A DNA stretch of 22,074 nucleotides from a virus. The notes below the pieces were generated by a model. That model was not told where the DNA came from. It made no database searches and saw only the letters and a list, made by a program, of their open reading frames with translations. The DNA is taken from IMG/VR virus record IMGVR_UViG_3300028837_001627, positions 1-22,074 of that record; one strand, written 5' to 3'. Shown here piece by piece: positions 2,084 through 22,074 of the stretch (its first letter is position 1; every line of letters begins with the position of its first letter). The translations under genes were made by a program, and so were the position numbers.

Positions 2084-2662
2084 ATGAATATCGTAGAACC
2101 GATAAGGTCAGAAAATCGGATAAAACAGATCAGGGGGAACCTATATCGGCAAAAAAATCCGAGGGATTATTTGTTATTCGTTTTTGGTATTAACTCCGGC
2201 CTGAGGATCGGGGATATATTATCCCTGAGACTTAGAGATGTCAAAAATAACCGGGGGGAGTTAAAAGATTATTTGGATATCAAAGAACAAAAGACCGGAA
2301 AGACCCGGAAGGTTTTCTTTAATAAGCAGATCAAAGAGGCCTTGAATCATTACTTGAAAAGGACCGATATATTTGACCTGGATCAATACCTATTCACTAA
2401 CGAGAAATCAAAAGAGAATAAGCCAATCACCAGGATCAGAGCCTATCAGCTAATAAACAAATGGTGTAAAGATACAGGCCTTAAATGCAAGGTCGGCGGT
2501 CATACGCTTAGAAAAACCTTTGGCTATCACTTGCGCATGCAGGGAATCAGTATCGAAAGAATCTCTAACCTATTGAATCACCGGAATATTAAAGTAACTT
2601 TCAGGTATATTGGGATCGATGATGATGAGAATAAAGAAGTCATTAATGGATTCGGGATATAG
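2084..2662 (+). CDS. Tyrosine recombinase, catalytic domain only
   Basis: The 192-residue protein carries the complete catalytic set of the lambda-Int/XerCD family: Arg41 in SGLRIGD, Lys70 in QKTGKTRK, His140 and Arg143 in GGHTLRKTF, His166 in LLNHRNIKVT and the nucleophile Tyr175 in RYIGI. It lacks the N-terminal core-binding/SAM-like domain of ordinary integrases (usually 300-400 residues in total). ATG 2084 is chosen because AAAGGTGGTG ends just before it; GTG 2072 overlaps that site. Short recombinases of this kind occur next to terminase genes in several phages and may act in integration, inversion or resolution. No attachment site is evident nearby, so its target is unknown. Confidence 0.85.
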   Translation: MNIVEPIRSENRIKQIRGNLYRQKNPRDYLLFVFGINSGLRIGDILSLRLRDVKNNRGELKDYLDIKEQKTGKTRKVFFNKQIKEALNHYLKRTDIFDLDQYLFTNEKSKENKPITRIRAYQLINKWCKDTGLKCKVGGHTLRKTFGYHLRMQGISIERISNLLNHRNIKVTFRYIGIDDDENKEVINGFGI

Positions 2663-2694
2663 AGGTATTATAATTTAAATGTGGAGGCGGATAG

Positions 2695-2901
2695 ATGAAA
2701 GAATTTTATATAACATTATTAAAAATAGCCTGGCATTTTATACCGAAATTTACTAAGATTGCTGCCCTGATTATTTTTATAGAAATGACAATCGTAATCA
2801 TGGTGGCCAATCCCCAAGATAGGTTTGGTTTAGTTGTCGGATTTATGTTTATGTTACCGGCTATTTTAATTGTATTGTTTATGTCAATAATTGAAAGGTA
2901 G
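2695..2901 (+). CDS. Small two-span membrane protein
   Basis: This 68-residue protein has an amphipathic, basic N-terminus (MKEFYITLLKIAWHFIPKF) and two hydrophobic helices, at about 21-38 (KIAALIIFIEMTIVIMVA) and 45-64 (LVVGFMFMLPAILIVLFMSI), joined by a short polar turn with Asn-Pro-Gln-Asp. The ribosome binding site is GTGGAGG. The size and topology resemble small phage holins or superinfection-exclusion proteins, but no lysis gene is adjacent. I do not assign a function. Confidence 0.6.
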   Translation: MKEFYITLLKIAWHFIPKFTKIAALIIFIEMTIVIMVANPQDRFGLVVGFMFMLPAILIVLFMSIIER

Positions 2902-2945
2902 GAGAATTACTATACATAAGGTATCTTATGGGACGTTGTTAAAAC

Positions 2946-2970
2946 CATTATAAACAAAGGGTTTATAATG
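2946..2970. repeat. AT-rich inverted repeat
   Basis: Two perfect 10-base arms (CATTATAAAC at 2946-2955 and GTTTATAATG at 2961-2970) flank a five-base loop. There is no T-run after it, so it is a poor terminator. It could be an operator or a regulatory RNA hairpin upstream of the 51-residue gene. Confidence 0.5.
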
Positions 2971-2996
2971 CGTTTTATCAATAAAAAGGGGTGATT

Positions 2997-3152
2997 ATGT
3001 TCATGGTGAATAATAAGGATAATGATCGATTGAGCCACGCTTTGGAATGGTGTAAAAAGCATAAGTTAGAATCGGACCGGTTAGATCTATTTAACCAGGA
3101 GCGCAAAAAGAAAAAGAAGAAATTAAAAATAAGCTCGGGGCCCCGAGCTTAA
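2997..3152 (+). CDS. Small basic hypothetical protein, 51 residues
   Basis: The frame starts at ATG 2997 after an AAGGGGTG ribosome binding site and ends at TAA 3150-3152. It has a polar helix-like body (DRLSHALEWCKKHKLESDRL) and a strongly basic tail with a run of six lysines ending SSGPRA. The last residues are encoded by a perfect palindrome that also forms a hairpin. A small DNA- or RNA-binding protein is possible. It lies where a small terminase gene might be expected but is much too short to be a normal one. I do not recognise it. Confidence 0.5.
   Translation: MFMVNNKDNDRLSHALEWCKKHKLESDRLDLFNQERKKKKKKLKISSGPRA
3130..3151 (-). terminator. Perfect 22-base palindrome, terminator-like on the minus strand
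   Basis: Bases 3130-3151 are a perfect GC-rich palindrome centred on GGGGCCCC. Read on the minus strand the hairpin is followed by ATTTTTAATTT, a U-rich tail, so it looks like an intrinsic terminator for leftward transcripts. Read on the plus strand it is followed by AACTCATAAC and lacks a T-run. A protein-binding operator is an alternative. Confidence 0.45.
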
Positions 3153-3424
3153 CTCATAACATGCAAGTCTTTAACCAAAAAAGTCAAATAATAGGTATAA
3201 TGATAAGCGGGGTTTTCTATACCCCCCTTAAAACGCAAATTTGAACGTTTTATTTTCGGTTTTATTAACAAAAATCAACGGAAAATCCTTATTTCTTATG
3301 GTCTATAGACATATTTAAGGTTTTAAGTAGATGAAAAGAGGTATACAATCATACGTTGAAGGTTAGGGAATCACTAACCAGGACTATCAGAGGTATTTTT
3401 AAGGCTATTCTAGAGGGGTGATCC
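3153..3424. promoter_or_regulatory. Non-coding leader before terminase with several inverted repeats and a -10 element
   Basis: These 272 bases show no gene of normal size. A perfect TATAAT lies at 3196-3201 after AGG, with only a weak -35, and is a candidate late promoter. Structures include GGGGT/ACCCC arms (3209-3213 and 3221-3225), the palindrome GTCTATAGAC (3301-3310) and a GGTTAG/CTAACC hairpin (3361-3379). A 21-codon frame from TTG 3356 to TGA 3419 (KVRESLTRTIRGIFKAILEG) ends inside the terminase ribosome binding site and could be a leader peptide. Position just before the large terminase also fits a packaging (pac or cos) site, but that is only inference. Confidence 0.4.
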
Positions 3425-4948
3425 ATTATCGCTAAGAATGTAAAGTTCCGACCGAAGTCAAGTTATCAGGCTAAGACTCCGGGAGCTAGAAAGAAAAAAC
3501 TTGATAACTTAAAATTAAGATGGCCGGAAAAGTTAAAAGTTGGCAGGGATAGAGGCTTTTCTTTCCTGAAATACAAAAAGGATATAATTCAATTTGCAGA
3601 AAAAGAAATCTATCTGCCCGAGAAGAGACAGAAACTAATCGAACTTGAGGATTGGGAGCTAGAGGTTTTTACAGATTGCTTTTATAAGAACAGACCTCGA
3701 TTGATTCTCGTAAGTTTGGCCAAAAAAAACGGTAAGTCTACCTTTTCGGCAATAGTCTTGAGTTGGTTCTTGATCTGCCAGGAGCCCGGCGAGATTTATA
3801 TTTGTTCCAATAGCAAGGACCAATCTAATTTCATTACTTATCGGAAAATTGTTTCCATGATCGAAAAGAACCCGAAGCTTAATAGGAAGTGCCGGATCCA
3901 TGCCGATTATATCGAGAATATTAAAACCGGAACGATTTTAAGATGCCTAAGTTCTTCTTTCCGGTCAAGTGCCGGACTTAATTGCCTATTAATTTGTATT
4001 GATGAATTGGCCTCTTTCGACACAGATTCTTTAAGATTCTTTTTTGACGAGTTGCAGCTATCCCCGACATATAAGTACCCTCTAATTCTAATAACTTCTA
4101 CCGCTGGAAGGTCAGAAGAAGGGATCTTGTGGGACCTGGTTAAGGAATCAGAAAAAGGCAATACCCCAGAAAGTTATTTCTACATTAAACAGGGGGAGGA
4201 AGCCAATCCTTCTTCTTTCGTAACTGATAAATATCTGGATAGCCAGGAACATAAACCGGGGATGAGGCCTAATCTATTCAAGCGGTTGCATAAAAATTTA
4301 TGGGTGAGCGAAGAGGATTCTTTTATAACTGATGAAGATTTTAGAGCTTGCATTGATTATAAATTAATCAAAAGGCCGGATAAAAAAATTCCTATATGGG
4401 TGGGACTTGACGTGGGATATAGAAATGACTATACCGCTATTTGTGGCGTAGGAAAAGTTAACAATAAAATCTTTTCGGTGGATCATAAAGTTTATATCCC
4501 ACTGAAAACAGAAGAATTACAATTTGATGATGTCAAGAGATATCTAATCGAATTATCTAAGATTTATGATATTCAAAGTTTATATTTCGATCCCTATCAG
4601 GCCATTCAATTGAGCCAAGATCTTAAAAAAGAAAAGATAAATATGGTGGAATTACCCCAGACCCAGGGAAATTGTATAGCCTTTTCTCAATGCCTTTTTA
4701 ATCTGATCAAAAGCCAGGGGATAAATTTCTATGAATCGGAGGAATTCAGGTTATCCCTTATCAATTGTAAGGTAGTTTATTCTACCAGGGGTTGGAGGAT
4801 TGTTAAAAAATCGGGAACTAAAAAAATCGATTTAGCTATTAGTTTGGCTATGGCCAGTTATGGCGCAGTAACTGCTCTAGAAGAGTCGGAGTCTATAATT
4901 GAAGGGAAGGGTGCCGGGAAACGACCAAGTGCCGAACAAGATTGGTAA
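3425..4948 (+). CDS. terL: Terminase large subunit, HK97-like, apparent AUU/AUC start
   Basis: This is the ATPase and nuclease of the DNA packaging motor. From ATT 3425 the protein is 507 residues. Walker A is at about 99-106 (AKKNGKST), Walker B at 189-194 (LLICIDE), motif III near 226 (STAG). The RNase H-like nuclease acids are Asp329 (WVGLDVGY), Asp389 (LYFDPYQ) and Asp469 (KKIDLAIS). The KNGKS form of Walker A is typical of HK97-type terminases (Terminase_1), not Mu gp28. TTG 3701 would begin only ten residues before the Walker A glycine and delete the adenine-binding N-terminus. Upstream the frame is open to TGA 3419, with no ATG, GTG or TTG in between. GAGGGGTGAT at 3413-3422 is correctly spaced for ATT 3425 or ATC 3428. 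No small subunit gene is recognisable. Confidence 0.9.
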   Translation: MIAKNVKFRPKSSYQAKTPGARKKKLDNLKLRWPEKLKVGRDRGFSFLKYKKDIIQFAEKEIYLPEKRQKLIELEDWELEVFTDCFYKNRPRLILVSLAKKNGKSTFSAIVLSWFLICQEPGEIYICSNSKDQSNFITYRKIVSMIEKNPKLNRKCRIHADYIENIKTGTILRCLSSSFRSSAGLNCLLICIDELASFDTDSLRFFFDELQLSPTYKYPLILITSTAGRSEEGILWDLVKESEKGNTPESYFYIKQGEEANPSSFVTDKYLDSQEHKPGMRPNLFKRLHKNLWVSEEDSFITDEDFRACIDYKLIKRPDKKIPIWVGLDVGYRNDYTAICGVGKVNNKIFSVDHKVYIPLKTEELQFDDVKRYLIELSKIYDIQSLYFDPYQAIQLSQDLKKEKINMVELPQTQGNCIAFSQCLFNLIKSQGINFYESEEFRLSLINCKVVYSTRGWRIVKKSGTKKIDLAISLAMASYGAVTALEESESIIEGKGAGKRPSAEQDW

Positions 4949-5069
4949 CAAGGATTTATAATTATAATGTAAAGTAAAAATTGACTAATAAATGATTTTA
5001 TGCTATTCTAAAAAAAATAAATATTCTCAAAGTGAGCCCCGGAATATATTTAATAATTTGACTAACTAC

Positions 5070-5126
5070 AGAGAGCCAGATTTGAGAAGCCTAAAAACTT
5101 CTTACTGGCTCTCTTTTTTTATTTTT
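5070..5126 (+). terminator. Intrinsic terminator after terL
   Basis: AGAGAGCCAG (5070-5079) pairs with CTGGCTCTCT (5105-5114), an inner AGAAG/CTTCT stem extends it, and a run of seven T follows, then ATTTTT. It is preceded by GAGCCCC at about 5034. The hairpin closely resembles the one at 20819-20868. An 88-codon frame (4992-5258) that reads through it is therefore unlikely to be translated as such. Confidence 0.85.
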
Positions 5127-5159
5127 AAAAGCAATGAAAAAAAATTAGAGGAAGTTTAT

Positions 5160-5258
5160 ATGTTTAAAATACAATTTGGATGGACTCACATAATTTTTGT
5201 GATTATATGTCTGTTTATAGGATTTGTCGCTTTTGTAAGCTGGGTTCTGAATCTATAA
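5160..5258 (+). CDS. 32-residue single-span membrane peptide
   Basis: ATG 5160 follows a GAGGAAG ribosome binding site and opens a frame of 32 codons: a short polar start (MFKIQFGWTH) and one hydrophobic helix (IIFVIICLFIGFVAFVSWVL). It lies between the terL terminator and the portal gene. Tiny membrane peptides are common in phage genomes, but no function can be assigned. A longer frame from ATG 4992 exists, but it would cross the terminator. Confidence 0.5.
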   Translation: MFKIQFGWTHIIFVIICLFIGFVAFVSWVLNL

Positions 5259-5288
5259 AAAATAAAATAAGGAACATTTTAAGACTAT

Positions 5289-7478
5289 ATGGATTTAAAA
5301 GATATATTTCAAAATACCAAAGACACCATAAAGAAATTAGTTAAACCGGAGATGGGCGAAATATCCCATTCTGGAACTGATATTTGGGGCATTGGTGATC
5401 TTCCTGTCTACAATCCTGATGACCTGGTAGAAAAAAAGGGCTTGGAAATATACAGAAAAATGCAAAGGCGGGATGGCCAGGTTAAAGCTGTTTTTATGTT
5501 GAAGAAGTTTGCCCGGTTGTCCACTCCCTGGGATATCAGGCCAGAAGATGAGGATGATCAGGAAGCGGTAAGACAAGCTGAATTTATAAAGCATTGTTTT
5601 TCAGATATGAAGGGGAACGTAAATAATACCCTGCTTAAAATTTGGAATGCCATGAGAGATGGTTATTCGGTGGCCGAGATTAATTATAAGGTCCTTTCTA
5701 CCGGAGAATTTAAGGGGATGATTGGGATCAATAATATCAAAGTCCGGAAAGCTGCAAATTATATGTTTAGATGTGATGAGCATGGCAATATTAAAGAAAA
5801 GGGCTTGATTGAAGGTCAAAATACTCAATTGCCTATTGATAAATTTATTCTTTTTACCTATAATCCCAATGATGACGATGCAAACAGCTTATATGGTGAA
5901 TCCGATTTTAGGGCTGCCTACCGGTATTATTTCTCTAATGATATCGTTCAGAGATTTTGGAATGTCTTTTTAGAGAAATTTGGCCAACCCACCGTAATAG
6001 GTCGTTATGAACCTAGCACTAATAAGGCGAAACAGGATGAATATTTAGATATATTAAAAAATATTCAGACTGATACCGCGATAGTTATGCCTAAAGGCTT
6101 AGAAGCTGAACTTTTAGAGGCTACCCGGAGAGGGGACGCAGGTTATAAATCGGCTTTTAATACTAATAATGCTATGATTGCCCGGGCTTTACTGGTGGGG
6201 ACTTTACTAATGGACACCGGGGAAAAGGGCTCCTGGGCTTTATCTAAGACCCATTTTGATATTTTTATCTATATTCTTGATTATTTAGGTACGGAAACCG
6301 AAGATACCATAATCCGGGAACAGATCATAAGGCGATTGATAGATTTTAATTTTGCACAACCGAAATATCCCTATTTTAAATTTAAATCATTGATTAAAGA
6401 GGACCAGGAAGCTAAAGCCAAGATCGCTAAAATGTTGGTCGATGCAGGGCTGATAAGTGCAGAGGAAGAGTGGGTCCGGGGATTCCTTAAAATCCCAGCC
6501 AAAGAAGAGGGGATAATTTTACCTGAACCCAAACCTAAACCCGGGGGCTTCGCAGAAGATTATCAGGCCAGGTTAAAAAGAAAACCCAACCAGTATGAAA
6601 AAAAATGTAACTTTACCAGGATAGTCAAAAACTTAGATGAATGGGAAACAAAAGCCAAAGAAGATCTTATAGAGATTATAACTAAACAGAAGGAAGCCCT
6701 TAAAAAAGATATCTTGAAAAGGAAGATCGTTGAAACTAATTCGGCTTCACAAATTGAAAAGATCCAATTGTCTTATGTGGGAGAATTAAAGAACAAAATA
6801 CAGGAATATTTAAGGGATTTATGGCAGTATGGCCGGGAAGAGGTAAAAAGTGAACTGGGTAAAATGAAATTTATCGATATAGTCCCTGGGTTGCCACCCA
6901 AAAAGGCCTTGCAATATTTAAACAATAAATCCTTCTGGATTGCTGGAGTGATAAGGGATAGCGTCTTAAAGGAAGCAAGGGCAATCTTATATAACGGTCT
7001 TAAAGGTGGGGCCACTACCCCGGAAATAATGTTTCAGTTAGATGGATTTTTTAAGGAATATATCGGGACTACCGCGATAGAGATAAAGACTGGGAGAGAA
7101 TTAACTCCCTGGCACCTTGAAAATGTAGTGAGAACCAATTTTAGTGATGCCTATAATGAGGGACGCTGGGCCATGATGAACGATCCGGATGTGGGGGATT
7201 TTGTACCGGCAGTTGCCTACTCTTCTGTTATGGATGAGGGGACTACCGAGATATGTGAACGGTTGGATGGCCAGGTATTTGAGAAGGGCGATCCTGATTT
7301 AGCCAGGGTGAAGCCACCCAATCATTATGAGTGCAGGGGAACTCTGGTCCCGGTTACTAAATATGAAAAATTTACCCCCATATCTAAAGAAAGGAAAGCG
7401 GGGATCATGGCTATAAAGCCTAAAAATTTTATAAATTTGGAAGGAGATGAGTTATATGCCTTACAAATATCCGGATAA
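5289..7478 (+). CDS. Portal protein (Mu gp29-like, DUF935) fused to a Mu F-like head morphogenesis domain
   Basis: The 729-residue protein forms the dodecameric ring at the packaging vertex, joined to a minor head protein. Residues about 40-420 match the DUF935 portal pattern, with VRKAANYMFRCDEHG and the LFTYNPNDDDANSLYGESDF stretch followed by a helical region. A Pro/Lys-rich linker (about 410-425) and a long charged helical segment follow. Residues about 605-705 resemble the Mu F/SPP1 gp7 domain: VVRTNFSDAYNEGRW, MDEGTTEICERLDGQVF, then PPNHYECRG with the expected His and Cys. In Mu these are separate proteins (gp29 and gp30). The ATG has only a distant AAGGA, about 15 bases away. The 3' end overlaps the protease gene by 23 bases. 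Confidence 0.9.
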   Translation: MDLKDIFQNTKDTIKKLVKPEMGEISHSGTDIWGIGDLPVYNPDDLVEKKGLEIYRKMQRRDGQVKAVFMLKKFARLSTPWDIRPEDEDDQEAVRQAEFIKHCFSDMKGNVNNTLLKIWNAMRDGYSVAEINYKVLSTGEFKGMIGINNIKVRKAANYMFRCDEHGNIKEKGLIEGQNTQLPIDKFILFTYNPNDDDANSLYGESDFRAAYRYYFSNDIVQRFWNVFLEKFGQPTVIGRYEPSTNKAKQDEYLDILKNIQTDTAIVMPKGLEAELLEATRRGDAGYKSAFNTNNAMIARALLVGTLLMDTGEKGSWALSKTHFDIFIYILDYLGTETEDTIIREQIIRRLIDFNFAQPKYPYFKFKSLIKEDQEAKAKIAKMLVDAGLISAEEEWVRGFLKIPAKEEGIILPEPKPKPGGFAEDYQARLKRKPNQYEKKCNFTRIVKNLDEWETKAKEDLIEIITKQKEALKKDILKRKIVETNSASQIEKIQLSYVGELKNKIQEYLRDLWQYGREEVKSELGKMKFIDIVPGLPPKKALQYLNNKSFWIAGVIRDSVLKEARAILYNGLKGGATTPEIMFQLDGFFKEYIGTTAIEIKTGRELTPWHLENVVRTNFSDAYNEGRWAMMNDPDVGDFVPAVAYSSVMDEGTTEICERLDGQVFEKGDPDLARVKPPNHYECRGTLVPVTKYEKFTPISKERKAGIMAIKPKNFINLEGDELYALQISG

Positions 7479-8808
7479 TATCCCGGAAGGGATAAAAGGT
7501 CTACCGGCAGAAGCCCAAAAAACCTGGATTGATATATATAATAATGCCTATGAGCAATACAAAGATCGGGCAGAAAGAGAAGGTTTGGCCAATGCCACAG
7601 CCTGGGCCGGTCTTAAAAAAGCAGGTTGGAAAAAAGATAAAGAAGGTAACTGGATTAAAACAGAACAGGGAAATTTAACCGCTATGGAATTAGCGATATG
7701 GGAGGCCTACTCTCAGACTTATGAGTTAACTGGTGTTGAGGTCTTTGGTATTGGAGTATGGAAGGGTAATAAAATAACTGATAAAGATCTTGATGATATT
7801 GTAAATAACACTAATGAAATAATCGATAAATTAAAACCGAGAGTAAAATTAGGACATGATGATAAGCAGGCGCTATTACAAAGAACGGGATTGCCCGCTG
7901 GTGGCTGGATCACCAAATTAAAGAGGGCAGGGGATAAAATTTTAGTGGACATAAAGGAAGTGCCTAAGGTCTTATATCAATTAATCAAAAATGGAGCATA
8001 TAAGAGGATATCAAGTGAGATTTTAGCCGGTTATACCGAGCCCAGCACCAAAAAGAAATATAATAAGGTCCTTTCAGCCATAGCTTTTTTAGGTGCTGAT
8101 CTACCAGCAGTAACCAATTTAAAGGACATTGCTGCCCTATATGATTCTGATGATAACGCTAAATTAATTATATATGAGAAAACGACTAAGAAGGTCGATA
8201 AAAAAAGAAAGGAGGTATATATTATGCCAGGTAAAGTAACAATAACTGAATTAGAAAATAAAAAATATGTAGCAGTGGAAGATTACGAGAAAATTGAAAA
8301 GGAGAAGGAAAAAATTGAAAAGGAGAAAGAGGAGGCCAAGGGATTCAAGGAAAAATTTGAAGCCGAAGAGAAAAAATCCAAAGAATCAGAAGAAAAACTA
8401 GGCAAAATCTCTAAGGAAAAAAGAGAAGCTGAAATTAAAACCTTTATCGATGATCACTGCTCCGATAAAGACATGCGTTTTCTACCTAAACAGAAAGAAG
8501 TTTTAATGGCTCTTGTAGAGTCCACTTCTGATGAGAAGAAGATTAAGTTTACAGTAGATGACAAAGAAACCGAACTTTCACAGCGAGAATTACTGGAGAA
8601 ATTTATCGAACTTCAACCCAATTTCTCTGATTCCATTTTTGCTGAATTAAGCAAGGGCGAAGAGGAAGGGGACGAGGATAAAGATAAAGATAAATTAACT
8701 CCGGAAGAAAAGAAGGTCCAGAAATACATGGCTGATCATGAAAAAGCTACTTATCGAGAAGCGGTCCTAGCCTGTCTGGATGCTACCGAAGAAAAAAAGA
8801 AAAAATAA
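7456..8808 (+). CDS. Head maturation protease with N-terminal ChaB-like domain and C-terminal scaffold (Mu gpI-like)
   Basis: The 450-residue protein processes and helps build the procapsid. Residues about 1-62 (YPDNIPEGIKGLPAEAQKTW to GWKKD) look like a ChaB-like domain, found near or fused to several phage proteases. Residues about 85-245 match the Mu I protease region, including VKLGHDDKQ and GAYKRISSEIL, with a likely catalytic His and Ser. Residues about 257-450 are highly charged and coiled-coil-like, rich in Glu and Lys, as in scaffold domains. ATG 7456 is chosen because AAGGAG sits nine bases before it; ATG 7447 abuts that site. A perfect ribosome binding site inside the gene precedes ATG 8224. 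Confidence 0.85.
   Translation: MPYKYPDNIPEGIKGLPAEAQKTWIDIYNNAYEQYKDRAEREGLANATAWAGLKKAGWKKDKEGNWIKTEQGNLTAMELAIWEAYSQTYELTGVEVFGIGVWKGNKITDKDLDDIVNNTNEIIDKLKPRVKLGHDDKQALLQRTGLPAGGWITKLKRAGDKILVDIKEVPKVLYQLIKNGAYKRISSEILAGYTEPSTKKKYNKVLSAIAFLGADLPAVTNLKDIAALYDSDDNAKLIIYEKTTKKVDKKRKEVYIMPGKVTITELENKKYVAVEDYEKIEKEKEKIEKEKEEAKGFKEKFEAEEKKSKESEEKLGKISKEKREAEIKTFIDDHCSDKDMRFLPKQKEVLMALVESTSDEKKIKFTVDDKETELSQRELLEKFIELQPNFSDSIFAELSKGEEEGDEDKDKDKLTPEEKKVQKYMADHEKATYREAVLACLDATEEKKKK
8208..8226 (+). promoter_or_regulatory. Internal ribosome binding site and start for a nested scaffold protein
   Basis: AAAGGAGGT at 8208-8216 lies eight bases before ATG 8224, in frame with the protease gene. Within the protease it is read as KKRKEVYIM. 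The match to the anti-Shine-Dalgarno sequence is better than that of most true starts in this window. Confidence 0.75.
8224..8808 (+). CDS. Nested scaffold protein (in-frame internal start within the protease gene)
   Basis: Translation from ATG 8224 gives 194 residues identical to the C-terminal part of the protease: MPGKVTITELENKKYVAVED, then an almost uninterrupted Lys/Glu-rich coiled coil (about 20-70), a mixed helical region, and an acidic/lysine tail. This copies the arrangement of Mu gpI/gpZ and lambda C/Nu3, where a protease and its free scaffold share one frame. The scaffold would be made in excess and cleaved by the protease during maturation. The strong internal ribosome binding site is direct evidence; the product itself is inferred. 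Confidence 0.7.
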   Translation: MPGKVTITELENKKYVAVEDYEKIEKEKEKIEKEKEEAKGFKEKFEAEEKKSKESEEKLGKISKEKREAEIKTFIDDHCSDKDMRFLPKQKEVLMALVESTSDEKKIKFTVDDKETELSQRELLEKFIELQPNFSDSIFAELSKGEEEGDEDKDKDKLTPEEKKVQKYMADHEKATYREAVLACLDATEEKKKK

Positions 8809-10246: not shown

Positions 10247-11182
10247 TTGGATAAATTTTATAGAAAAGGAGTGTTTCTTGGAGATGCTCATTTTTACGAA
10301 AATATGTTTTTTAGAGGAAGCCAGGTATTCGGAGCATACGGAAAGATATATTTTGTAGACAAGAAGAATGGGGTAGACACCAATAGCGGTTTATCTTGGG
10401 CCCAGGCGGTTAAGACCATTGCCAAAGCTATTGCATTATCCAATGCAACCATCGATTGGGCTGGCGATCCCTGGTTAGTTGATAATTATATTATCATTGC
10501 TCCGGGATTATATAAGGAAAATTTAGAATCAGTCCCTCATTCCTGTCATATGATCGGATTGGGTGTGCATGGGACTGATACCCCGGTTGAAATACATCCT
10601 GATACCGGAAAGGCAATTGCTGTCGCTACTGCGGTAGGAGTTCATTTTTACAATATTCGATTTGAGGCTACTGGTGCAGTACCGATAATCGATTTTGGTA
10701 TTTGCAATAATGTGATCTTCCAAAATTGCCAATTTGCTCCTACTGGCGCGGGGGTGACCTGTTATATAGAAACCGACAATTGTTCACATTTGCAGATTAT
10801 AAATTGTCAATTTATGTCAGGGCTTGGTACTCCGGTTATAACCAACGGATTACATTTCAAGGGTGGCGCGGATAAATTCCTGTTTGCTTCATTGATCAAA
10901 GGCAATATAATTTCAGGGATTAAATCCGGTGGAACAGGTATAAGAATCGTTGCCGGTTGCACCGCTTCTGAAACGGTGATCCAGGATAACGTAATTATTG
11001 TACCGGGAGCAGGCAAGGGCATTTTGGATGGAAACGGCAATACCTATTGCATTAGAAATAAAATATTTGTAGGTTCAGGCGGAGATTGTATTGATCATGC
11101 CGGCGGAGATTCCCATTTATTAGGGAATTTAGTTAATGTAAATGGTACAGTCAAGGATGAGCCTAAAATAGACTTAACCTAA
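10247..11182 (+). CDS. Right-handed parallel beta-helix protein (pectate-lyase-fold), inserted in the head module
   Basis: The 311-residue protein starts at TTG 10247 after AAAGGAG. Residues about 36-60 (YFVDKKNGVDTNSGLSWAQA then VKTIAKAI) are the classic entry to a DUF1565/pectate-lyase-like beta helix. The rest is a ladder of short repeats ending in asparagine turns: VHFYNIRFEA, NVIFQNCQFAP, LQIINCQFMSG, LIKGNIISG, TVIQDNVIIV, YCIRNKIFVG. Such folds occur in phage tailspikes, depolymerases and surface lectins. No clear catalytic residues can be assigned, so it may bind glycans without cleaving them. Its place between capsid and connector genes is unusual. A capsid-surface fibre or decoration is a reasonable inference. 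Confidence 0.8.
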   Translation: MDKFYRKGVFLGDAHFYENMFFRGSQVFGAYGKIYFVDKKNGVDTNSGLSWAQAVKTIAKAIALSNATIDWAGDPWLVDNYIIIAPGLYKENLESVPHSCHMIGLGVHGTDTPVEIHPDTGKAIAVATAVGVHFYNIRFEATGAVPIIDFGICNNVIFQNCQFAPTGAGVTCYIETDNCSHLQIINCQFMSGLGTPVITNGLHFKGGADKFLFASLIKGNIISGIKSGGTGIRIVAGCTASETVIQDNVIIVPGAGKGILDGNGNTYCIRNKIFVGSGGDCIDHAGGDSHLLGNLVNVNGTVKDEPKIDLT

Positions 11183-11190
11183 TAAATAAA

Positions 11191-11220
11191 ATTAGAGGGG
11201 AATATACGTTCCCCTCTAAT
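11191..11220 (+). terminator. Hairpin after the beta-helix gene (attenuator-like)
   Basis: Perfect 12-base arms, ATTAGAGGGGAA (11191-11202) and TTCCCCTCTAAT (11209-11220), enclose a six-base loop. The following bases are TAATAGGAG, leading into the next ribosome binding site, so termination is probably partial. The same core is found in the hairpin just upstream of the beta-helix gene. Confidence 0.6.
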
Positions 11221-11237
11221 TAATAGGAGAAATATAA

Positions 11238-11684
11238 ATGGCTTTTTGTGAAACTACTGACGTTTTAACTAATTTGAATATGTCGGCAACCGATGTTCCC
11301 GAAGAATTGTTGGCCAAGGCTATTATTAAAGCTGACGCAGAAGTAAGGGCAGCTTTTTCATCCGACCTATTGGCTGCCCTTGACGCTTTAGGGACTACCC
11401 CGGCCATTATAAAATCTTTGGCTGAAGATATTGCTTCATATTATGTAATGAGGGGATTGTATTCGGGGAAAATGCCGAGCACCAACGAATGGATTGACCG
11501 GTACAAAGAGGCTAAAGATACCCTTAAAAAAATTGCCGAAGGTACTTTACAGATCGAAGGTATTACCGTAGACGTGGGGGCAATTCAATCTACTACAAAA
11601 GATTATAAAAGGACGTTTAATGAAAGTGATGAGACAAATTGGGAAATAGATTCTGGTAAATTGGAGGATCTGGCTGATGACTAA
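11238..11684 (+). CDS. Head-tail connector, Mu gp36-like (DUF1320)
   Basis: The 148-residue protein has the pattern of DUF1320: an N-terminal CETTDVLTNL, helices with AKAIIKADAEVRAAF, then IIKSLAEDIASYYVMRGLYS and RYKEAKDTLKKIAEGTLQI. In Mu, gp36 lies after the capsid gene and is thought to act at the head-tail joint. The start follows AATAGGAG, and the 3' end overlaps the Mu G-like gene by eight bases, showing translational coupling. Confidence 0.85.
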   Translation: MAFCETTDVLTNLNMSATDVPEELLAKAIIKADAEVRAAFSSDLLAALDALGTTPAIIKSLAEDIASYYVMRGLYSGKMPSTNEWIDRYKEAKDTLKKIAEGTLQIEGITVDVGAIQSTTKDYKRTFNESDETNWEIDSGKLEDLADD

Positions 11685-12240
11685 CGGAGCATTAATCAGT
11701 TACGAAATTAAGAATGATGAGAAGGTAAAGGCTCTATTAAAAAAGGCCGGGAATAAAGCTAAGGATCTTAGAATCCCTTTGAAGCGATCCGGTATTTTAA
11801 TGTTAAGATCTATCGATAAAAATTTTAGGGCAGAAGGTAGGCCCAAAAGGTGGGCCCCACTTTCCCCAATGACTATTGCTATGCGGAGAAAGAAAGGAAA
11901 GGGGGCTAAAATCCTTCAAGATACCGGAATGGGGAAGGGATCTATTACTTATGAAGTCGTATCTAATCAAAAAGTACAGATAGGAACTCGGCGCGATTAT
12001 ATGAGGATACACCAAACAGGCGGTTCTATCAAAATACCGGCCAGGGATATCTACCCGATAAAAGCAAAGGCTCTGCACTGGGTTGATCCGGGCACCGGGG
12101 AAGATGTTTTTGCTATGCACGTTCACCAAAAGGAAAGGACGGCCAAGATACCCCAGCGTAAATTTTTACTTTTTCAGGAAGATGATAAGAAGAATATAGT
12201 TAATATTTTTACTGAATATTTAGAGGAGATAACCAGGTGA
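11677..12240 (+). CDS. Virion morphogenesis protein, Mu gpG-like (Phage_tail_S family)
   Basis: The 187-residue protein contains the family signature RSIDKNFRAEGRPKRWAPLS, then MTIAMRRKKGKG, ILQDTGMGKGSITYEV and IGTRRDYMRIHQTGG. The C-terminus has PQRKFLLFQEDD. Mu gpG and its relatives are needed late in assembly, for head-tail joining or tail completion. GGAGG lies upstream of ATG 11677 inside the previous gene. The reading frame ends in an overlapping GTGA with the next gene. The protein carries about 20 extra residues (IPARDIYPIKAKALHWVDPG) in the region following HQTGG, common in versions from Gram-positive-type phages. Confidence 0.85.
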   Translation: MTNGALISYEIKNDEKVKALLKKAGNKAKDLRIPLKRSGILMLRSIDKNFRAEGRPKRWAPLSPMTIAMRRKKGKGAKILQDTGMGKGSITYEVVSNQKVQIGTRRDYMRIHQTGGSIKIPARDIYPIKAKALHWVDPGTGEDVFAMHVHQKERTAKIPQRKFLLFQEDDKKNIVNIFTEYLEEITR

Positions 12241-15375: not shown

Positions 15376-17376
15376 TTGGCAGATATATGGGTTAATATTT
15401 TAGGTGACGGTTCAAAATTAAAAGGCGAATTAGATAAATCCAGTAAGAATGTTTCCAGTTTTTCTGAAAAAATAGGGAAAATTGGCAAGATCGCCACTGT
15501 TGCCGGAGCTGCGGTTACCGGGGTTTTTGCTGCTATCATATTAAAAACTGCACAAGCCGGTGATCAATTTGATAAAATGAGCCTGCGGACCGGGGTTGCA
15601 GTAGAGGATTTGTCGGCTCTGGCCTACGCTGCTGATATATCCGGTACAGATATTGGAACATTGGAAAAAGGTTTAAAGAGCCTGACCAAAGTAATGGATG
15701 ACGCTTCGATGGGAATTGGTGAAGGTATGGAGGCCTTTGAACTGTTAGATATTGCTGTTTTAGATAGCGAAGGAAATTTAAGAGGTACGGTTGATGTATT
15801 AAAAGAAGCAGCCCTCAAAATATCCGCAATAGAAAACCCTACCAAACAGGCAGCCCTTGCTATGGATCTATTCGGAGCAAGAGCAGGTCCGCAATTATTG
15901 CCTTTACTTAAAGCAGGTGAAGGCGGTATCGAAGATTTAATGAACCGGGCTAAAGAATTGGGTATAACCATGTCTACCGAAGCGGCCACTAAGGCAGCTG
16001 AATTTACCGATAGAATGACCGATTTAAAAGGATCTTTGGCTGGTGCAGGTAGGACCATTGGAGATACTTTAATACCGGCTGTTATTCCCTTAATAGAAAA
16101 AGTTACTGAAATAGTAGGAAAAGTTGTTGCCTGGACCAAGGAAAATCCTGAACTGGTTGCCACAATAACGAAGGTGGCTGCGGTGGTGGGGGTTGCTGCT
16201 GCGGTAGGTGGCCCAATCTTAATGCTTGTAGCTGCTTTTAGTGCAGTGGCTCCCGCGATAGCTTTAATAGGAACTATAGCGACTGGCCCAATCGGATTAC
16301 TTATCATAGCGGTTACTGCCATAATTGCAGTCTGGAAAAACTGGGATAAAATTGTAGAATTTGTATCGGGTTTTGTAGATAAAATAAAAGGTTATTTAGA
16401 AAACTTAAAAACTATGGCTATTCAAAAGGTAACTGAAATGATTGATTGGATAATAGAAAAATTTAAAGACCTGGCCAATTTGCCTAAAAAGATGATGGAC
16501 TGGGGAAAAAATGCCATTACTGGCTTCGCTGATGGAATTAAAGGTGCAACGTCAAAGGTAACAGATTCTATTAAAGGTGCAGCGAATAAAGTTAAAAATT
16601 TCTTCGGTTTTGAATCTCCACCGATAGAGGGTCCTCTTTCTGGATCTGATAAATGGATGCCCAATATGATGGTTATGTTTGGCAAAGGTATAACTGATAA
16701 TATCCCTAAAGTTATTATCCCGGTTGAAACATTATCAACTAACATTATGAGTATATTTGAAAATCTAAAGAATGATTTTAAATCTAACATTGTTGATCCT
16801 ATCGTGGGTTATCTTGAAAATCAGTTAACTTATGCAATTACCGGTCTTTTGGGTGGAGTAGAGGATTTTGAATGGAGTTGGAAAAGTTTTTGGGAAGGTC
16901 TAAAGAAAACATTAATAGATGCCGTAGCTGCCATGATCGCTAAATTAGTAGTATTGGCAACCTTTAAATGGTTATTTCCCTGGCTTGGGTTTGAAACAGG
17001 TGGCGGAGTAGGATATCAATTTGGTGGTGAAGTTAAAAAGTTTCAATCTGGTGGGATGGCTGATACTATACCAGCCAGATTAACGATCGGAGAATATGTT
17101 ATATCCAAACCAATGACCGATTTTATTAAGAGATTTAAGGCGATTCCCGGGAATTTAATAGCTGCAGTTGTTGGTGGATTTCCTACTCCTACCCCTGCTT
17201 TTGCTGGGGGTGGTGCAGTGGGAACTTCAAATATTACTTCCACCAGTTTTGGTGAAACTAAAATATATGTGGATATTCATGATAATAAAATATCTGATGA
17301 CGTAGATATTAAAAGATTGGCTATGACGGTAAGCGGGGAAATATTGAGAAAAATCAATCTTAAAAGGAGGCACTAA
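15376..17376 (+). CDS. Tail tape measure protein
   Basis: The 666-residue protein sets tail length and helps DNA entry. It starts at TTG 15376 after GGGGGTG and reads ADIWVNILGDGSKLKGELDK. There is a hydrophobic segment at about 35-55 and a long one at about 258-320 (VAAVVGVAAAVGGPILMLVA to LLIIAVTAIIAVW), as usual for tape measures. Alanine/glycine-rich helices and repeated lysine spacing fill the rest. The C-terminus GMADTIPARLTIGEYVIS is the familiar end motif of this family. At about 0.15 nm per residue the tail would be near 100 nm, an estimate only. It overlaps the tail-tip gene by one base. Confidence 0.92.
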   Translation: MADIWVNILGDGSKLKGELDKSSKNVSSFSEKIGKIGKIATVAGAAVTGVFAAIILKTAQAGDQFDKMSLRTGVAVEDLSALAYAADISGTDIGTLEKGLKSLTKVMDDASMGIGEGMEAFELLDIAVLDSEGNLRGTVDVLKEAALKISAIENPTKQAALAMDLFGARAGPQLLPLLKAGEGGIEDLMNRAKELGITMSTEAATKAAEFTDRMTDLKGSLAGAGRTIGDTLIPAVIPLIEKVTEIVGKVVAWTKENPELVATITKVAAVVGVAAAVGGPILMLVAAFSAVAPAIALIGTIATGPIGLLIIAVTAIIAVWKNWDKIVEFVSGFVDKIKGYLENLKTMAIQKVTEMIDWIIEKFKDLANLPKKMMDWGKNAITGFADGIKGATSKVTDSIKGAANKVKNFFGFESPPIEGPLSGSDKWMPNMMVMFGKGITDNIPKVIIPVETLSTNIMSIFENLKNDFKSNIVDPIVGYLENQLTYAITGLLGGVEDFEWSWKSFWEGLKKTLIDAVAAMIAKLVVLATFKWLFPWLGFETGGGVGYQFGGEVKKFQSGGMADTIPARLTIGEYVISKPMTDFIKRFKAIPGNLIAAVVGGFPTPTPAFAGGGAVGTSNITSTSFGETKIYVDIHDNKISDDVDIKRLAMTVSGEILRKINLKRRH

Positions 17377-20207
17377 TGGGGATAACAGTCAAAATCGGTG
17401 GTGTGGATCGGACTGAATATGTTGACGCAAGATCATTAAATATAATTAATGAGCTTACTAGCCGGGTCAATTCTGCTTCCTTTATTTTTATCTGCAATGA
17501 TATAGCCCTGGCTCCTGCCGCTGGCCAGGCGGTTTTAATCGAAGAAGGTACAACTAAATTATTTTCCGGAAGGGTCTTAACCAAAGAGGAAGATTTTTTA
17601 AATCCCAATCTCTTAAAATATCAGGTTGAATGTATTGACAATACTCGGGATCTTGATAAAAAATTGGTAATAGAAAGTTATATAGATACGTTGGCCGGGG
17701 ATATTATCAAAGATATTATTGATAAATATACTACCGGATTTACTTATGTCCATGTCAGCGATGGACCCACTATAACCAGGATAGCCTTTGATTATATTCA
17801 AATATCGGAGGCAATAACTAAAATAGCCGAAACTTGCGGTTACGAATGGTATGTGGATCATGATAAAGACATTTATTTCTTCCTAAAAACTGACTATCCG
17901 GCCTCTTTCCAGTTAGATGATGATCAGGCCCATTATCGGGATCTGATTATTAATACCGATATATCTCAGTTGAGAAACCGGGTTTATGTAAAAAGTGAAA
18001 AATATGAAACCCTGGATTTTACAGAATTATTTATGGGTGATGGGGAAACTGTAACCTGGACCTGCAAATATCAAGCGAATGCTTTACCAGCCCCCTCATT
18101 GACATTAAAAGGAGTAGCCAAAACCGTAGGCTGGTATGGGGTAGATAACCCTGATGATTATGATTTTATGTTAAATGCCACTACCAAAGTTTTGTCACTA
18201 GGGACTTCTCAATCTACCCCTGCCGATGGTGATGAAATAGTTATCACTTATGGGGCTGATGTGGCTATAATTATCAGGTGGGATGATCAGGATTCTATCG
18301 ATGCAGTTAAAGCTATTGAAGGTGGGGACGGTATATTTGAATATTGTATAACTGATAATAATATTGATACTAAAGAATGGGCTATCGATAGAGCTAAGGC
18401 TGATTTACTTCAAAATGCTGATCCGGTTATTGAGGGAACTTTTATAACTAATCAGAGCGATATTAGAAGTGGTCAGATTTTAACTTTAAATTCTACTAAA
18501 AGAAACATTAATCAAAATTTTTTAGTACAGAAAGTAGAATTAATTCGGGTTGATGTGATTACCGAATATCCTCATATTCCTTATAAACCGGCTGCTGAAG
18601 CGGTAATAGGATATAAACCGGCTGATGAGGCAGAAGAAGGATATAGAAGTGCTACTGGCAGTGAAATTATTTATTATATTTATCAAGTTACCATTGCCAC
18701 TAAATTAAAAGGGTTGGAAGATCTATTATTAGGATTGTTATATCGGGGCAGTGAAAGTTTAAAGCGGGATACCACTGCCCCCGATACCTCTACCGGGTTG
18801 GCTTTATCTACCGGGATGGGTTCAATTACTCAGGCCAGTTTAGCCTGGTTAAAAGCTACCTGGGATGCTAATACCGAAGATGATTTTTCTCACTATGAAT
18901 TAAAATATAAAAAGACTGCTTACTCTGATTTTGGTTATGTTACTACTACCAATATTACTTTTATCTGGACCGGATTAGAGCAGAATATAGAATATCAGGT
19001 TTATATTAGGGCAGTAGACATTTACGGAAATAGAAGTGCTTGGAGTGGAGTTCAAACTCAGGTTACCGCTACCGACAGCGATACCCCCGCTCAAGTATCC
19101 GGGGCAATAGCAAGCGCATTGTTGGCAGGAATTAAAGTTACCTGGGATAGATCAAGTGAAGATAATATTGCCGGTTATGCAGTGGAAAGACAGGAAAGTG
19201 ATGACGGAACAACCTGGACCGGAGAATGGACCGAAAGGGTTAGAACTGACGCTACCATGTGGCTGGATTTGCTATTAACCTATACCAAATATTATCGTTA
19301 TCGAATCAAAGCCTTTACTCAAACTGGAACAGAGGGGACTACCTCTACCCCTACCGCTGATAGTATTAAGCCTAATAAAGCGGGTACTAATGATATTGTG
19401 GCCGGTGCTATAACCGCTGATTTAATAGCGGCTAATTCTATTTACACTAATGCTATTCAGGCAGGGGCAGTTACGGCAAGTAGATTAAGTGCTTCTTATA
19501 TTGTAGTAGGTGGAGCAGCAGGGGATGTAAATAATGGTGTTACCACTATCAGTGGTGGGAAAATAACTGCAAATACTATTACTGTTACACAATTAAATTT
19601 TACTCCGGTCAAAAGCACTGATGTTATAGCAAGAATCAACGCTTCCGCAGAAGGAATTAGAATAGATGCAGATAATATTTATATTTCAGGGTTGACTACT
19701 TTTGCAGGCGGATATAATCCTACTGGTAAGATTGCTGTAGGTGGAGCAGCAGCAGATGTTAATGCTTATACAACAACAATTCACGGCGGAAAAATAACCA
19801 CTTATTCAATTGCTGCAAATAGAATTAATGTAGACAATTTAGCAAGTATTAAAGCCATTTTAGGAACGGTTCACGCCGGGACGATCTACGGAACGAGGAT
19901 CAGGGTAGGTGGCGGAGAGGATGAGGATATCTTATTCGAGGATAGCGGGATAAGATTTTATGATGTTAGTTCTAATCATTTGAGGATGTATAAATCTGGC
20001 TTGCAATATATAGATTTTTTTGTCGGTATCGGTGGAGTTGAAATATCATCTGATGGAGTTTTAGGGTTAAAATCTTTATTTGTTCATAACAATGGAACAA
20101 TCGAAATGCATAATTTTAGTAGTAACCCCGGTGGACAATCTGGTGGAATATGTATGGTTAATAATCAATTAAAATATTGGGATGGTGGAAATTGGGTCGA
20201 TGCGTAA
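17376..20207 (+). CDS. Tail-tip / baseplate hub protein with FN3 domains and receptor-binding-like C-terminus
   Basis: The 943-residue protein probably sits at the tail tip. Residues about 1-440 resemble the hub (gp27/Tal-like) fold, with IGGVDRTEYVDARSLNI and DIIKDIIDKYTTGFTY. A short tandem YKPAAEA/YKPADEA repeat lies near 405-425. Two fibronectin-III-like domains follow at about 466-565 (FSHYELKYKK, EYQVYIRAVDIYGNRSAWS) and 568-665 (YRYRIKAFTQTG). GTNDIVAGAITADLIAANSI near 669 is typical of lambda J-like central tip proteins. The C-terminal part has two copies of a VGGAAxDVN...GGKIT repeat, a domain ending GGICMVNNQLKYWDGGNWVD, and likely carries host recognition. Ribosome binding site AAGGAGG. 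Confidence 0.85.
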   Translation: MGITVKIGGVDRTEYVDARSLNIINELTSRVNSASFIFICNDIALAPAAGQAVLIEEGTTKLFSGRVLTKEEDFLNPNLLKYQVECIDNTRDLDKKLVIESYIDTLAGDIIKDIIDKYTTGFTYVHVSDGPTITRIAFDYIQISEAITKIAETCGYEWYVDHDKDIYFFLKTDYPASFQLDDDQAHYRDLIINTDISQLRNRVYVKSEKYETLDFTELFMGDGETVTWTCKYQANALPAPSLTLKGVAKTVGWYGVDNPDDYDFMLNATTKVLSLGTSQSTPADGDEIVITYGADVAIIIRWDDQDSIDAVKAIEGGDGIFEYCITDNNIDTKEWAIDRAKADLLQNADPVIEGTFITNQSDIRSGQILTLNSTKRNINQNFLVQKVELIRVDVITEYPHIPYKPAAEAVIGYKPADEAEEGYRSATGSEIIYYIYQVTIATKLKGLEDLLLGLLYRGSESLKRDTTAPDTSTGLALSTGMGSITQASLAWLKATWDANTEDDFSHYELKYKKTAYSDFGYVTTTNITFIWTGLEQNIEYQVYIRAVDIYGNRSAWSGVQTQVTATDSDTPAQVSGAIASALLAGIKVTWDRSSEDNIAGYAVERQESDDGTTWTGEWTERVRTDATMWLDLLLTYTKYYRYRIKAFTQTGTEGTTSTPTADSIKPNKAGTNDIVAGAITADLIAANSIYTNAIQAGAVTASRLSASYIVVGGAAGDVNNGVTTISGGKITANTITVTQLNFTPVKSTDVIARINASAEGIRIDADNIYISGLTTFAGGYNPTGKIAVGGAAADVNAYTTTIHGGKITTYSIAANRINVDNLASIKAILGTVHAGTIYGTRIRVGGGEDEDILFEDSGIRFYDVSSNHLRMYKSGLQYIDFFVGIGGVEISSDGVLGLKSLFVHNNGTIEMHNFSSNPGGQSGGICMVNNQLKYWDGGNWVDA

Positions 20208-20263: not shown

Positions 20264-20776
20264 ATGAAAAAAATAATATTATGCTTATTGATGATATGCT
20301 TATTGACAGGTTGCGGTTCGGGTTTATACAATTTAAATAATTTTGTTTTACCCGATGATATTGAATTTCTTATAGTGATTGAAGAAATTTATACGCCAGA
20401 AAAAATCGGGAATTATATGCTGGAAAACTTTACTTATGAAGCACATAATTTTACAGCACAAAGTCCTTATGAATTATTTCTTTCTAAAAAGGGAGATTGT
20501 GATGAATTTGCAAAGTTTGGAGTATTTATTGCTGACTATCATGGCTATGAGACATATCAGATTGGATTAACTTTTAAAACAACTTCAATGACTCATTGGA
20601 TAGGAATATATGTAGAAGATAAATTATCATTTACAAATAACCGAATGTATTATTATGGATTCGATACATTTAGAGAAATAGTAGAATTCGGCACATCCCA
20701 GACAGGACACGAATGGACAAAATATACCATCTACGACTACGATATGAACATCGTAGAAACAGTATATAATAATTAA
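20264..20776 (+). CDS. Lipoprotein with transglutaminase-like cysteine peptidase domain
   Basis: The 170-residue protein has a short signal sequence (KKIILCLLMICLLTGC) with lipobox LLTGC, so Cys17 would be lipidated after cleavage and the protein anchored to the host membrane. The mature part contains SKKGDCDEFAKFGVFIADYH (Cys79), MTHWIGIYVE (His111) and SFTNNRMYYYG with a nearby Asn/Asp, the Cys-His-Asp/Asn order of transglutaminase-like domains. It may be a peptidase, a cell-wall or protein-modifying enzyme, or an inactive binder. The base composition is more AT-rich than the tail genes, and a terminator follows, so it looks like a separately acquired moron. A role in superinfection exclusion or surface change is inference. 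Confidence 0.7.
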   Translation: MKKIILCLLMICLLTGCGSGLYNLNNFVLPDDIEFLIVIEEIYTPEKIGNYMLENFTYEAHNFTAQSPYELFLSKKGDCDEFAKFGVFIADYHGYETYQIGLTFKTTSMTHWIGIYVEDKLSFTNNRMYYYGFDTFREIVEFGTSQTGHEWTKYTIYDYDMNIVETVYNN

Positions 20777-20818: not shown

Positions 20819-20870
20819 AGAGAGCCAGATTTTAAAGGCCGAAAAAGCCTTTTAATCTGGCTTTTTTTGT
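20819..20870 (+). terminator. Strong intrinsic terminator after the lipoprotein gene
   Basis: AGCCAGATTTTAAAGGC (from 20823) pairs almost fully with GCCTTTTAATCTGGCT (to 20862) around a short A-rich loop, followed by seven T. GAGAGCCCC precedes it. Sequence and layout are close to the terminator at 5070-5126. Confidence 0.9.
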
Positions 20871-20891: not shown

Positions 20892-21062
20892 ATGGAAGAA
20901 CTGGCCAAAAAAATAGAACAGATACTTAACCAATTTTTTATCGAATGTCAGGGAAACAGATTAAACCAATTTGCCTGGGTTACTCTTGTAAAAACGATTT
21001 TAGATACAATCAGGAACCATAAACCTATTAAAAGTGAGGTGGAAAAAGATGTTAAAAAATAA
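20892..21062 (+). CDS. Small helical hypothetical protein, 56 residues
   Basis: ATG 20892 follows AAAGGAG and opens a 56-codon frame ending at TAA 21060-21062. The sequence (EELAKKIEQILNQFFIECQG, then RLNQFAWVTLVKTILDTIRN) is predicted to be two amphipathic helices with no membrane segment. It overlaps the next gene by 14 bases and lies directly after a terminator, so a new transcript should begin nearby, though I see no clear promoter. The function is unknown; a chaperone or partner for the adjacent fibre-like protein is possible. Confidence 0.55.
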   Translation: MEELAKKIEQILNQFFIECQGNRLNQFAWVTLVKTILDTIRNHKPIKSEVEKDVKK

Positions 21063-22074
21063 AATATGGTTAGGGATATTCTTATCAATTATTCTGTTAA
21101 TATTCAGCATAAACGGCTTTGCTGCATATTACAAATATACCCAGGAGTCGGGAGATCTCTTTTATGTGGGGACCGGTGACAAGGCCGATGCCCTGGAAGA
21201 TACCAACGAAATGAGACAGATAATCGATGATCTAGGGGCTTTGCTGTTCCATTCAAAGAGGGATGGCGTATATCCTAAAGGTGGCGATTTTGGCGGCACA
21301 ATACAAATCCCCGAAGCCGGATTAAATTTTTCCAACGCTCCTGAGAATAATGATATCGCTGCTTATATTGCCGGCGAAATGATGTGGAAAACAAAAGCAG
21401 AATTAGGCATTGATTTATCACTTTATTATCTCAAGACCGAAATAGACACACTTGGCGAAGTGGAAACTATATATTCTGCTGATATTACTGATAGTACAGA
21501 ATTAGCTACTGCCTTAACAAGCTATTATCTAAAAACTGCCATAGATACTATTGGAGAAGTAGAAACAATATGGATTAAGGACATAACCGATAGTGATGAA
21601 TTAGCTGCTGCTTTAACAGATTATTACTTAAAAACTGCAATTGATAGTCAAGGAGAAGTAGAGACTATTTGGGGAGTGACTTTGGCTACTGATAGCGAAT
21701 TAAATACCGCTTTGGCTGATTATTATTTAAAGACTGCGATAGATACTTTGGGGAAATTGGAAACTATTTATACCAAAGACATAATTGATAGCGATGAACT
21801 TGCTGTTCTAAAATTTACTGATTTGGCGGATACCCCTGCCAATTACGAAGGTCAGGCGGGAAAATATGTCAAAGTCAATGCGGGTGAAACGGATTTAGAA
21901 TTTGGAACTCCTACCGGTGGAGCAGGGACTTACCTTGAATTAGACGATACCCCTGCTGCCTACGATAATGGGAAATACGCTAAATCAACCGCTGACGGTG
22001 TAGTTTGGGATACTCCTGCTGGTGCTGGAACTGTTACTACCTCTGGAACTCCCGAAGTTAATGATATAGCCAGA
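21049..22074 (+). CDS. Fibre-like repeat protein with N-terminal signal peptide (3' truncated)
   Basis: The frame is open from ATG 21049 to the window edge, 342 codons so far. GAGGTGG lies about eight bases before the ATG. The N-terminus (LKNKIWLGIFLSIILLIFSI then NGFAAYY) has a basic start, hydrophobic core and an AxA-like end near 24-26, a typical Sec signal peptide. After a short region (FYVGTGDKADALED) come four tandem 33-residue repeats (bases about 21424-21811) built on YYLKTAIDTxGEVETI...DSDELA. Then follow two repeats common in phage tail fibres (FTDLADTPANYEGQAGKYVK and LELDDTPAAYDNGKYAKS). Tail fibres do not normally carry signal peptides, so it may instead be displayed on the host surface. 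Confidence 0.75.
   Translation, partial: MLKNKIWLGIFLSIILLIFSINGFAAYYKYTQESGDLFYVGTGDKADALEDTNEMRQIIDDLGALLFHSKRDGVYPKGGDFGGTIQIPEAGLNFSNAPENNDIAAYIAGEMMWKTKAELGIDLSLYYLKTEIDTLGEVETIYSADITDSTELATALTSYYLKTAIDTIGEVETIWIKDITDSDELAAALTDYYLKTAIDSQGEVETIWGVTLATDSELNTALADYYLKTAIDTLGKLETIYTKDIIDSDELAVLKFTDLADTPANYEGQAGKYVKVNAGETDLEFGTPTGGAGTYLELDDTPAAYDNGKYAKSTADGVVWDTPAGAGTVTTSGTPEVNDIAR
21424..21811 (+). repeat. Four tandem 99-base coding repeats in the fibre-like gene
   Basis: Units start at 21424, 21523, 21622 and 21721. Each encodes about 33 residues beginning YYLKT and containing GEVETI (GKLETI in the last) and an acidic xDSxEL segment. The DNA has diverged more than the protein pattern, so the copies are old or under selection. 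The last unit runs into the FTDLADTP fibre repeat. Confidence 0.8.

Follow-up and report, generated by a model that had tools for sequence, protein, structure and literature searches.

Why does a phage protein built of tail-fibre modules begin with a signal peptide for Sec export? This question is raised by the last gene of the IMG/VR record IMGVR_UViG_3300028837_001627, which is exactly 22,074 bp long; the window analysed here is the whole of that record. We examined the gene in the window, in related viral contigs, and in structural models of full-length relatives, and asked whether the product is best seen as a virion fibre, a surface adhesin of a carrier cell, a lysis accessory, or an exported protein that acts on the infected cell.

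RESULTS

A fibre-like gene with a signal peptide downstream of the tail genes

The window carries a siphovirus-type late region with genes for terminase, portal, head maturation protease, decoration protein, major capsid, tail tube, tape measure, and tail-tip protein. Downstream of the tail-tip gene are a lipoprotein gene, a 56-amino-acid (aa) ORF, and the fibre-like gene (Table 1). The tail-tip protein has its C-terminal module in common with that of contig L030, although the two proteins are otherwise unrelated. At the other end of the window, an ORF resembles the C-terminal part of the phage phosphoadenosine phosphosulfate reductase family (262-567; 2.5e-12), and a short tyrosine integrase is encoded at 2072-2662 (PHROG integrase, 1.7e-55).

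Table 1. Features of the window around the fibre-like gene
Feature	Position	Strand	Evidence or remark
Tail-tip (J/YqbQ-like) protein with fn3 domains and its own fibre-like C-terminus, without signal peptide	17376..20207	+	Pfam fn3 4e-8; YQBQ weak; PHROG central tail fibre J 5e-13
Lipoprotein, lipobox LLTGC; separate unit upstream of terminator	20264..20776	+	Weak, sub-cutoff transglutaminase-core match
Strong intrinsic-terminator hairpin and T-run, between lipoprotein and fibre unit	20819..20870	+	MFE -24.8 kcal/mol, z -3.8
56-aa helical ORF	20892..21062	+	3' end overlaps fibre start by 14 nt
Ribosome binding site GAGGTGG of fibre gene	21036..21042	+	
Predicted exported fibre-like protein, 3' end missing at contig end	21049..22074	+	ATG start 21049
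Sec-type signal peptide MLKNKIWLGIFLSIILLIFSINGFA	21049..21123	+	Conserved in 23/24 contigs
Conserved mature N-terminal domain, YYKYTQESG...DKADALEDTNE.RQI.DDLG.LL.HSK	21127..21312	+	19 invariant alignment columns; dN/dS 0.08
Four 33-residue tandem repeats, YLKTxIDTxGEVETIxxxDIxDSxELAxALxxY	21427..21822	+	Lag-33 self-match
Fibre ('DTPA') modules FxDLxDTPAxYxxxAGKYVKVNxxExxLEF, cut by contig end	21805..22074	+	PHROG tail protein 7.5e-10, residues 252-317

A sequence-only reading of this DNA had begun the fibre gene at 20892. That position is the start of the separate 56-aa ORF, and the fibre gene itself extends from 21049 to beyond 22074. The same reading had described a good ribosome binding site at the gene start and a signal peptide on a fibre-like protein with 33-residue repeats, and in these points we agree with it: GAGGTGG precedes the ATG, and the signal peptide and four repeat units are present, the former conserved in relatives. 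The repeats span residues 127 to 258 and give 60 identities at lag 33, against a maximum of 28 over all lags in shuffled sequences.

The fibre-like protein begins with MLKNKIWLGIFLSIILLIFSINGFA, a 25-residue Sec-type signal peptide with an n-region charge of +2 and a 12-residue core (mean Kyte-Doolittle value, 3.16), which is followed by AYYKYTQ. The call is based on composition, conservation, and the (-3,-1) rule. The signal peptide contains no lipobox, and the part of the protein that lies in the window has no further hydrophobic stretch. The capsid, portal, tube, and tail-tip proteins of the window are without signal peptides.

The signal peptide is conserved among N-domain relatives

Scans of the viral collection returned 23 further contigs encoding the N-terminal domain (N-domain), making 24 with the window; L022/L024 and L031/L032 are near-duplicate pairs. 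These relatives are exclusively uncultivated (metagenomic) viral contigs. A full-length relative had no match at 1e-3 among 50,697 phage records, where no isolate-phage relative was found, and the N-domain has no sequence relative in the PDB. Two scans of 84,980 prokaryote genomes for the host, one with the N-domain and one with the M15 endolysin, found nothing; judging from the lipoboxes and the endolysin, the host is bacterial.

A signal peptide with a positive n-region and a strong hydrophobic core was present in 23 of the 24 N-domain contigs. Across 13 sequences, dN/dS was 0.17 for the signal peptide, indicating purifying selection, and 0.08 for the N-domain that follows. A ribosome binding site precedes the signal-peptide start in nearly every relative, which together with the codon conservation rules out a misassigned start codon. 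The cleavage site is weak in a subgroup whose signal ends in ...NGFT before AYY; there the signal could possibly be an uncleaved anchor, and this weakness counts against export as we read it.

Homologues without the hydrophobic N-terminus, which the sequence-only reading had held would speak against it, were looked for and found once among the 24 contigs, with one distant match besides. The first is L036, whose protein starts with M-PYKFTQESG, precisely where the mature form of its relatives begins; a separate ribosome binding site serves this start, and in-frame stops lie just upstream. The second is a distant N-domain relative in the L059 record. These two indicate that gain or loss of the signal peptide is possible, although almost all members keep it. 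L036 counts against export and masking and favours a different explanation, that the protein is a virion tail fibre or receptor-binding protein whose hydrophobic N-terminus serves, unusually, for virion attachment or as a membrane segment, or which joins virions after export or lysis. We regard this as somewhat unlikely. With its predicted Sec export, the protein would not in this form be an ordinary tail fibre assembled in the cytoplasm, and only L036 lacks the signal.

Unrelated N-termini carry signal peptides as well

The middle of the fibre protein is highly mosaic, and relatives that match only the repeats or the C-terminal head carry other, unrelated N-termini. Three such types were seen, each with a signal peptide: a GPYFDDTYF type (GPYFDDTYFDLSDDALILKV; L011, L014, and L040), a YELG type (YELGxGSGTxYPGAIDTDT; L012 and L044-L046), and a third in L059. 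The three types stand at comparable places, and their signal peptides are unrelated in sequence. Recurrence on four N-terminal types rules out a chance hydrophobic N-terminus, and canonical signal peptides of unrelated sequence on all four are also hard to reconcile with a virion tail fibre.

As a control, we examined the same head domain outside these phages. In 14 of 16 contigs the protein had no signal peptide, nor did an annotated Flavobacterium phage tail fibre with the same head, so that same-head fibres elsewhere likewise argue against the virion explanation. The two exceptions, L070 and L078, are both unrelated phages. L078 encodes three signal-peptide proteins in a row (2423-6798), of which the second has this fibre head; a small TM ORF and an M15-peptidase-looking ORF (assigned by eye) come next. 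Conserved and convergent as the signal peptide is, export is the simplest reading.

The fibre gene lies with the tail and lysis genes

The receptor-binding protein of a siphophage is usually encoded just after the tail-tip gene. The fibre gene occupies this canonical position, directly after the tail-tip gene and before holin and endolysin, in L017, L004, and others, which suits a role in the virion and makes that explanation a serious rival to export and masking; in L044-L046 the fibre is exceptionally upstream of the tail-tip gene. The fibre repeats, the PHROG tail matches, and the gpD-like head of relatives fit a virion fibre too. However, the N-domain is paired with two tail-tip families whose N-terminal hubs have no significant similarity, so that a single dedicated docking partner in the tail is unlikely, and the tail-tip proteins already have lectin-like or fibre-like modules of their own.

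Relatives usually carry the fibre gene just upstream of the holin and endolysin genes. In L004 the order is fibre, a second signal-peptide (lectin-like) protein, a holin-like protein, and an M15 endolysin, neighbouring genes being less than about 15 bp apart. Such a place in an apparent lysis operon, combined with an export signal, would also suit a periplasmic or wall-associated helper of holin, endolysin, or spanin. This we consider highly improbable: a search for an enzymatic domain found none, fibre and head modules like these are usually seen in proteins for adhesion or in those of the virion, and the middle of the protein is mosaic. Homing-endonuclease-like ORFs, identified by eye, adjoin the fibre gene in L003 (5093-5818), L007 (5253-5996), L008 (5073-5858), and L044 (5437-6204).

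The sequence-only reading had grouped the fibre with the upstream lipoprotein and the small helical protein as a possible surface-display cassette. The lipoprotein is real and the helical ORF often adjacent, but a strong terminator splits the lipoprotein from the fibre. Similar hairpins, 16 to 31 nt before the fibre unit, recur in most type-A relatives, and where lipoproteins lie between the tail-tip and fibre genes, a strong terminator is usually downstream of them. In L017 there is no intervening lipoprotein, and just 27 bp lie between the tail-tip gene and the fibre. By this arrangement, the lipoproteins resemble accessory units that were inserted, and the fibre seems to belong to a late tail/lysis operon. 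The helical ORF is beside the fibre in many relatives and displaced in others (before the holin-like gene in L017). Just upstream of the hairpin, from 20802, is a conserved ACCGAGAGC motif that recurs in L016, L020, L023, L034, and L036; a search of the viral collection for the motif with the terminator returned only two contigs, both already known.

Terminator-flanked lipoproteins that look like added units, together with the integrase-like gene of the window, favour yet another explanation, in which the protein is a surface adhesin or lysogenic-conversion factor on the carrier cell, where it would promote attachment or aggregation or act as a decoy against other phages. A precedent exists in the PblB-type tail adhesins of phages, for one of which a signal peptide is predicted (PMC4508584). 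Against it, the fibre is contiguous with the lysis genes, and the distance from the T-run to the next start codon is only about 20 nt, in which a promoter would hardly fit; no separate promoter was apparent between terminator and start. Among the records of 14 relatives, which may be incomplete or fragments, one had an integrase (Phage_integrase match) and none a resolvase. We thus find an adhesin distinctly unlikely. Of the host-surface role put forward in the sequence-only reading, the predicted export stands, whereas a late lytic role fits better than surface display in lysogens, since integrase is rare in relatives and the fibre is just upstream of holin and endolysin.

The head domain and a lectin-like partner in relatives

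The fibre of the window ends before the head domain, and the head and the downstream neighbours were seen in relatives only. Full-length relatives have a C-terminal domain like gpD and the phi29 head fibre. In the AlphaFold2 model of the full-length L017 relative, the head (residues about 230 to 352) was confident, with a pLDDT of about 90; the N-terminal part (N-domain) was poor and of low confidence. Among the folds listed by the structure searches, the head resembled the capsid decoration proteins of HFTV1 and a mycobacteriophage, lambda gpD, and SHP, as well as two phi29 proteins, the head-fibre base and the appendage. The comparison with HFTV1 gave a Z of 11.6 and an rmsd of 3.0 over 112 aligned residues; another match had a Z of 10.4.

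A second protein with an export signal, lectin-like, is usually encoded downstream of the fibre in relatives. Its model is a confident jelly roll (pLDDT 87) that matches the lectin-like domain of Cwp84 (Z 12.4; rmsd 2.8; 135 aligned) and also resembles CBM domains of carbohydrate esterases and phage baseplate or tail-tip domains. This modelled likeness alone does not prove glycan binding. Without a signal peptide, the same lectin-like family occurs inside the tail-tip protein of L018, L019, L022, and L031, each of which has an exported copy too, and as separate proteins in L025 and L036. The L036 record, whose fibre lacks the signal peptide, showed no separate exported lectin-like protein, and both lectin-like copies found there lie in other proteins. 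Exported and tail-tip lectin-like domains were 45 to 48% identical within a genome, compared with means of 46 to 49% across genomes. A genome's own pairs are thus no closer than cross-genome pairs, and matched specificity or a shared receptor is not shown by them.

At 10842-11864, L017 encodes a lipoprotein with an N-terminal part like that of the window lipoprotein and a C-terminal lectin-like domain. In L006, a signal-peptide protein built of repeated 'GVNWTExQPAGAADKNWYCCS' units (7326-7970) takes the place of the exported lectin-like protein and retains its W-rich C-terminal tail (WNTKEIxKWNDLE).

DISCUSSION

Export of the fibre-like protein is well supported, as a prediction from sequence. 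What it would serve is less certain, and we tentatively favour, at a little less than an even chance, a late exported copy of fibre and lectin modules that acts on the infected cell's surface, most likely by masking receptors. A late exported fibre and lectin beside the lysis genes, with modules that are also found on the tail tip, fit such masking. The fibre-like protein would be made with the late tail and lysis genes and exported by the Sec pathway of the host. Outside the membrane, its repeats and trimer-type head would probably form a short fibre, which may bind the infected cell's own surface glycans together with the co-encoded exported lectin-like protein. With the receptor masked or altered, kin phages could not superinfect the cell, and released progeny would not stick to its debris.

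A broader proposal, which we think unlikely, is that this is a recurrent, undescribed strategy: as infection ends, phages would export secreted duplicates of the fibre and lectin modules that they already possess, and this would have evolved independently in several lineages. The purpose would be either the masking of receptors or the loading of virions with fibres outside the cytoplasm. L078 has the same order, with a signal-peptide fibre, a signal-peptide protein, a holin-like ORF, and a peptidase-like ORF. More generally, receptor-type modules with export signals would let phages control re-adsorption at the protein level with no need for a small lipoprotein, and many metagenome genes annotated as 'tail fibre' would then not encode virion parts. 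L036 and its relatives are a natural pair with and without the signal peptide, which makes the question directly testable.

Comparison with known systems

PblB was the only precedent found in the literature for a tail fibre with a signal peptide: in S. pneumoniae NTUH-P15 it is a phage tail-fibre-like adhesin for which one is predicted (PMC4508584). PblA and PblB, of Streptococcus phage SM1 and NTUH-P15, were compared by features; they share with the present family a tail-fibre-like character and repeats, and they bind carbohydrate at the cell surface, as the present protein may. However, PblB of SM1 is set free when the lytic cycle is induced and is required for tail morphogenesis, and the present family differs from both in its nearly universal signal peptide and in the exported lectin-like protein next to it. 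T5 Llp, which is periplasmic and allosteric, prevents adsorption to infected cells and debris (PMC9586334). The likeness to superinfection-exclusion lipoproteins of the Llp/Cor type would be one of proposed logic only, an exported phage protein that blocks adsorption. Llp, a small lipoprotein, acts on FhuA by allostery from within the periplasm, whereas the fibre-like protein is non-lipidated, without a lipobox; neither Llp nor PblB is a demonstrated relative of it. By the modelled head fold, full-length relatives resemble the head-decoration proteins gpD and SHP, the phi29 head-fibre base gp8.5, and the appendage gp12. Those are virion proteins without a signal peptide, whereas here the fold is the C-terminal head of a protein predicted to be exported.
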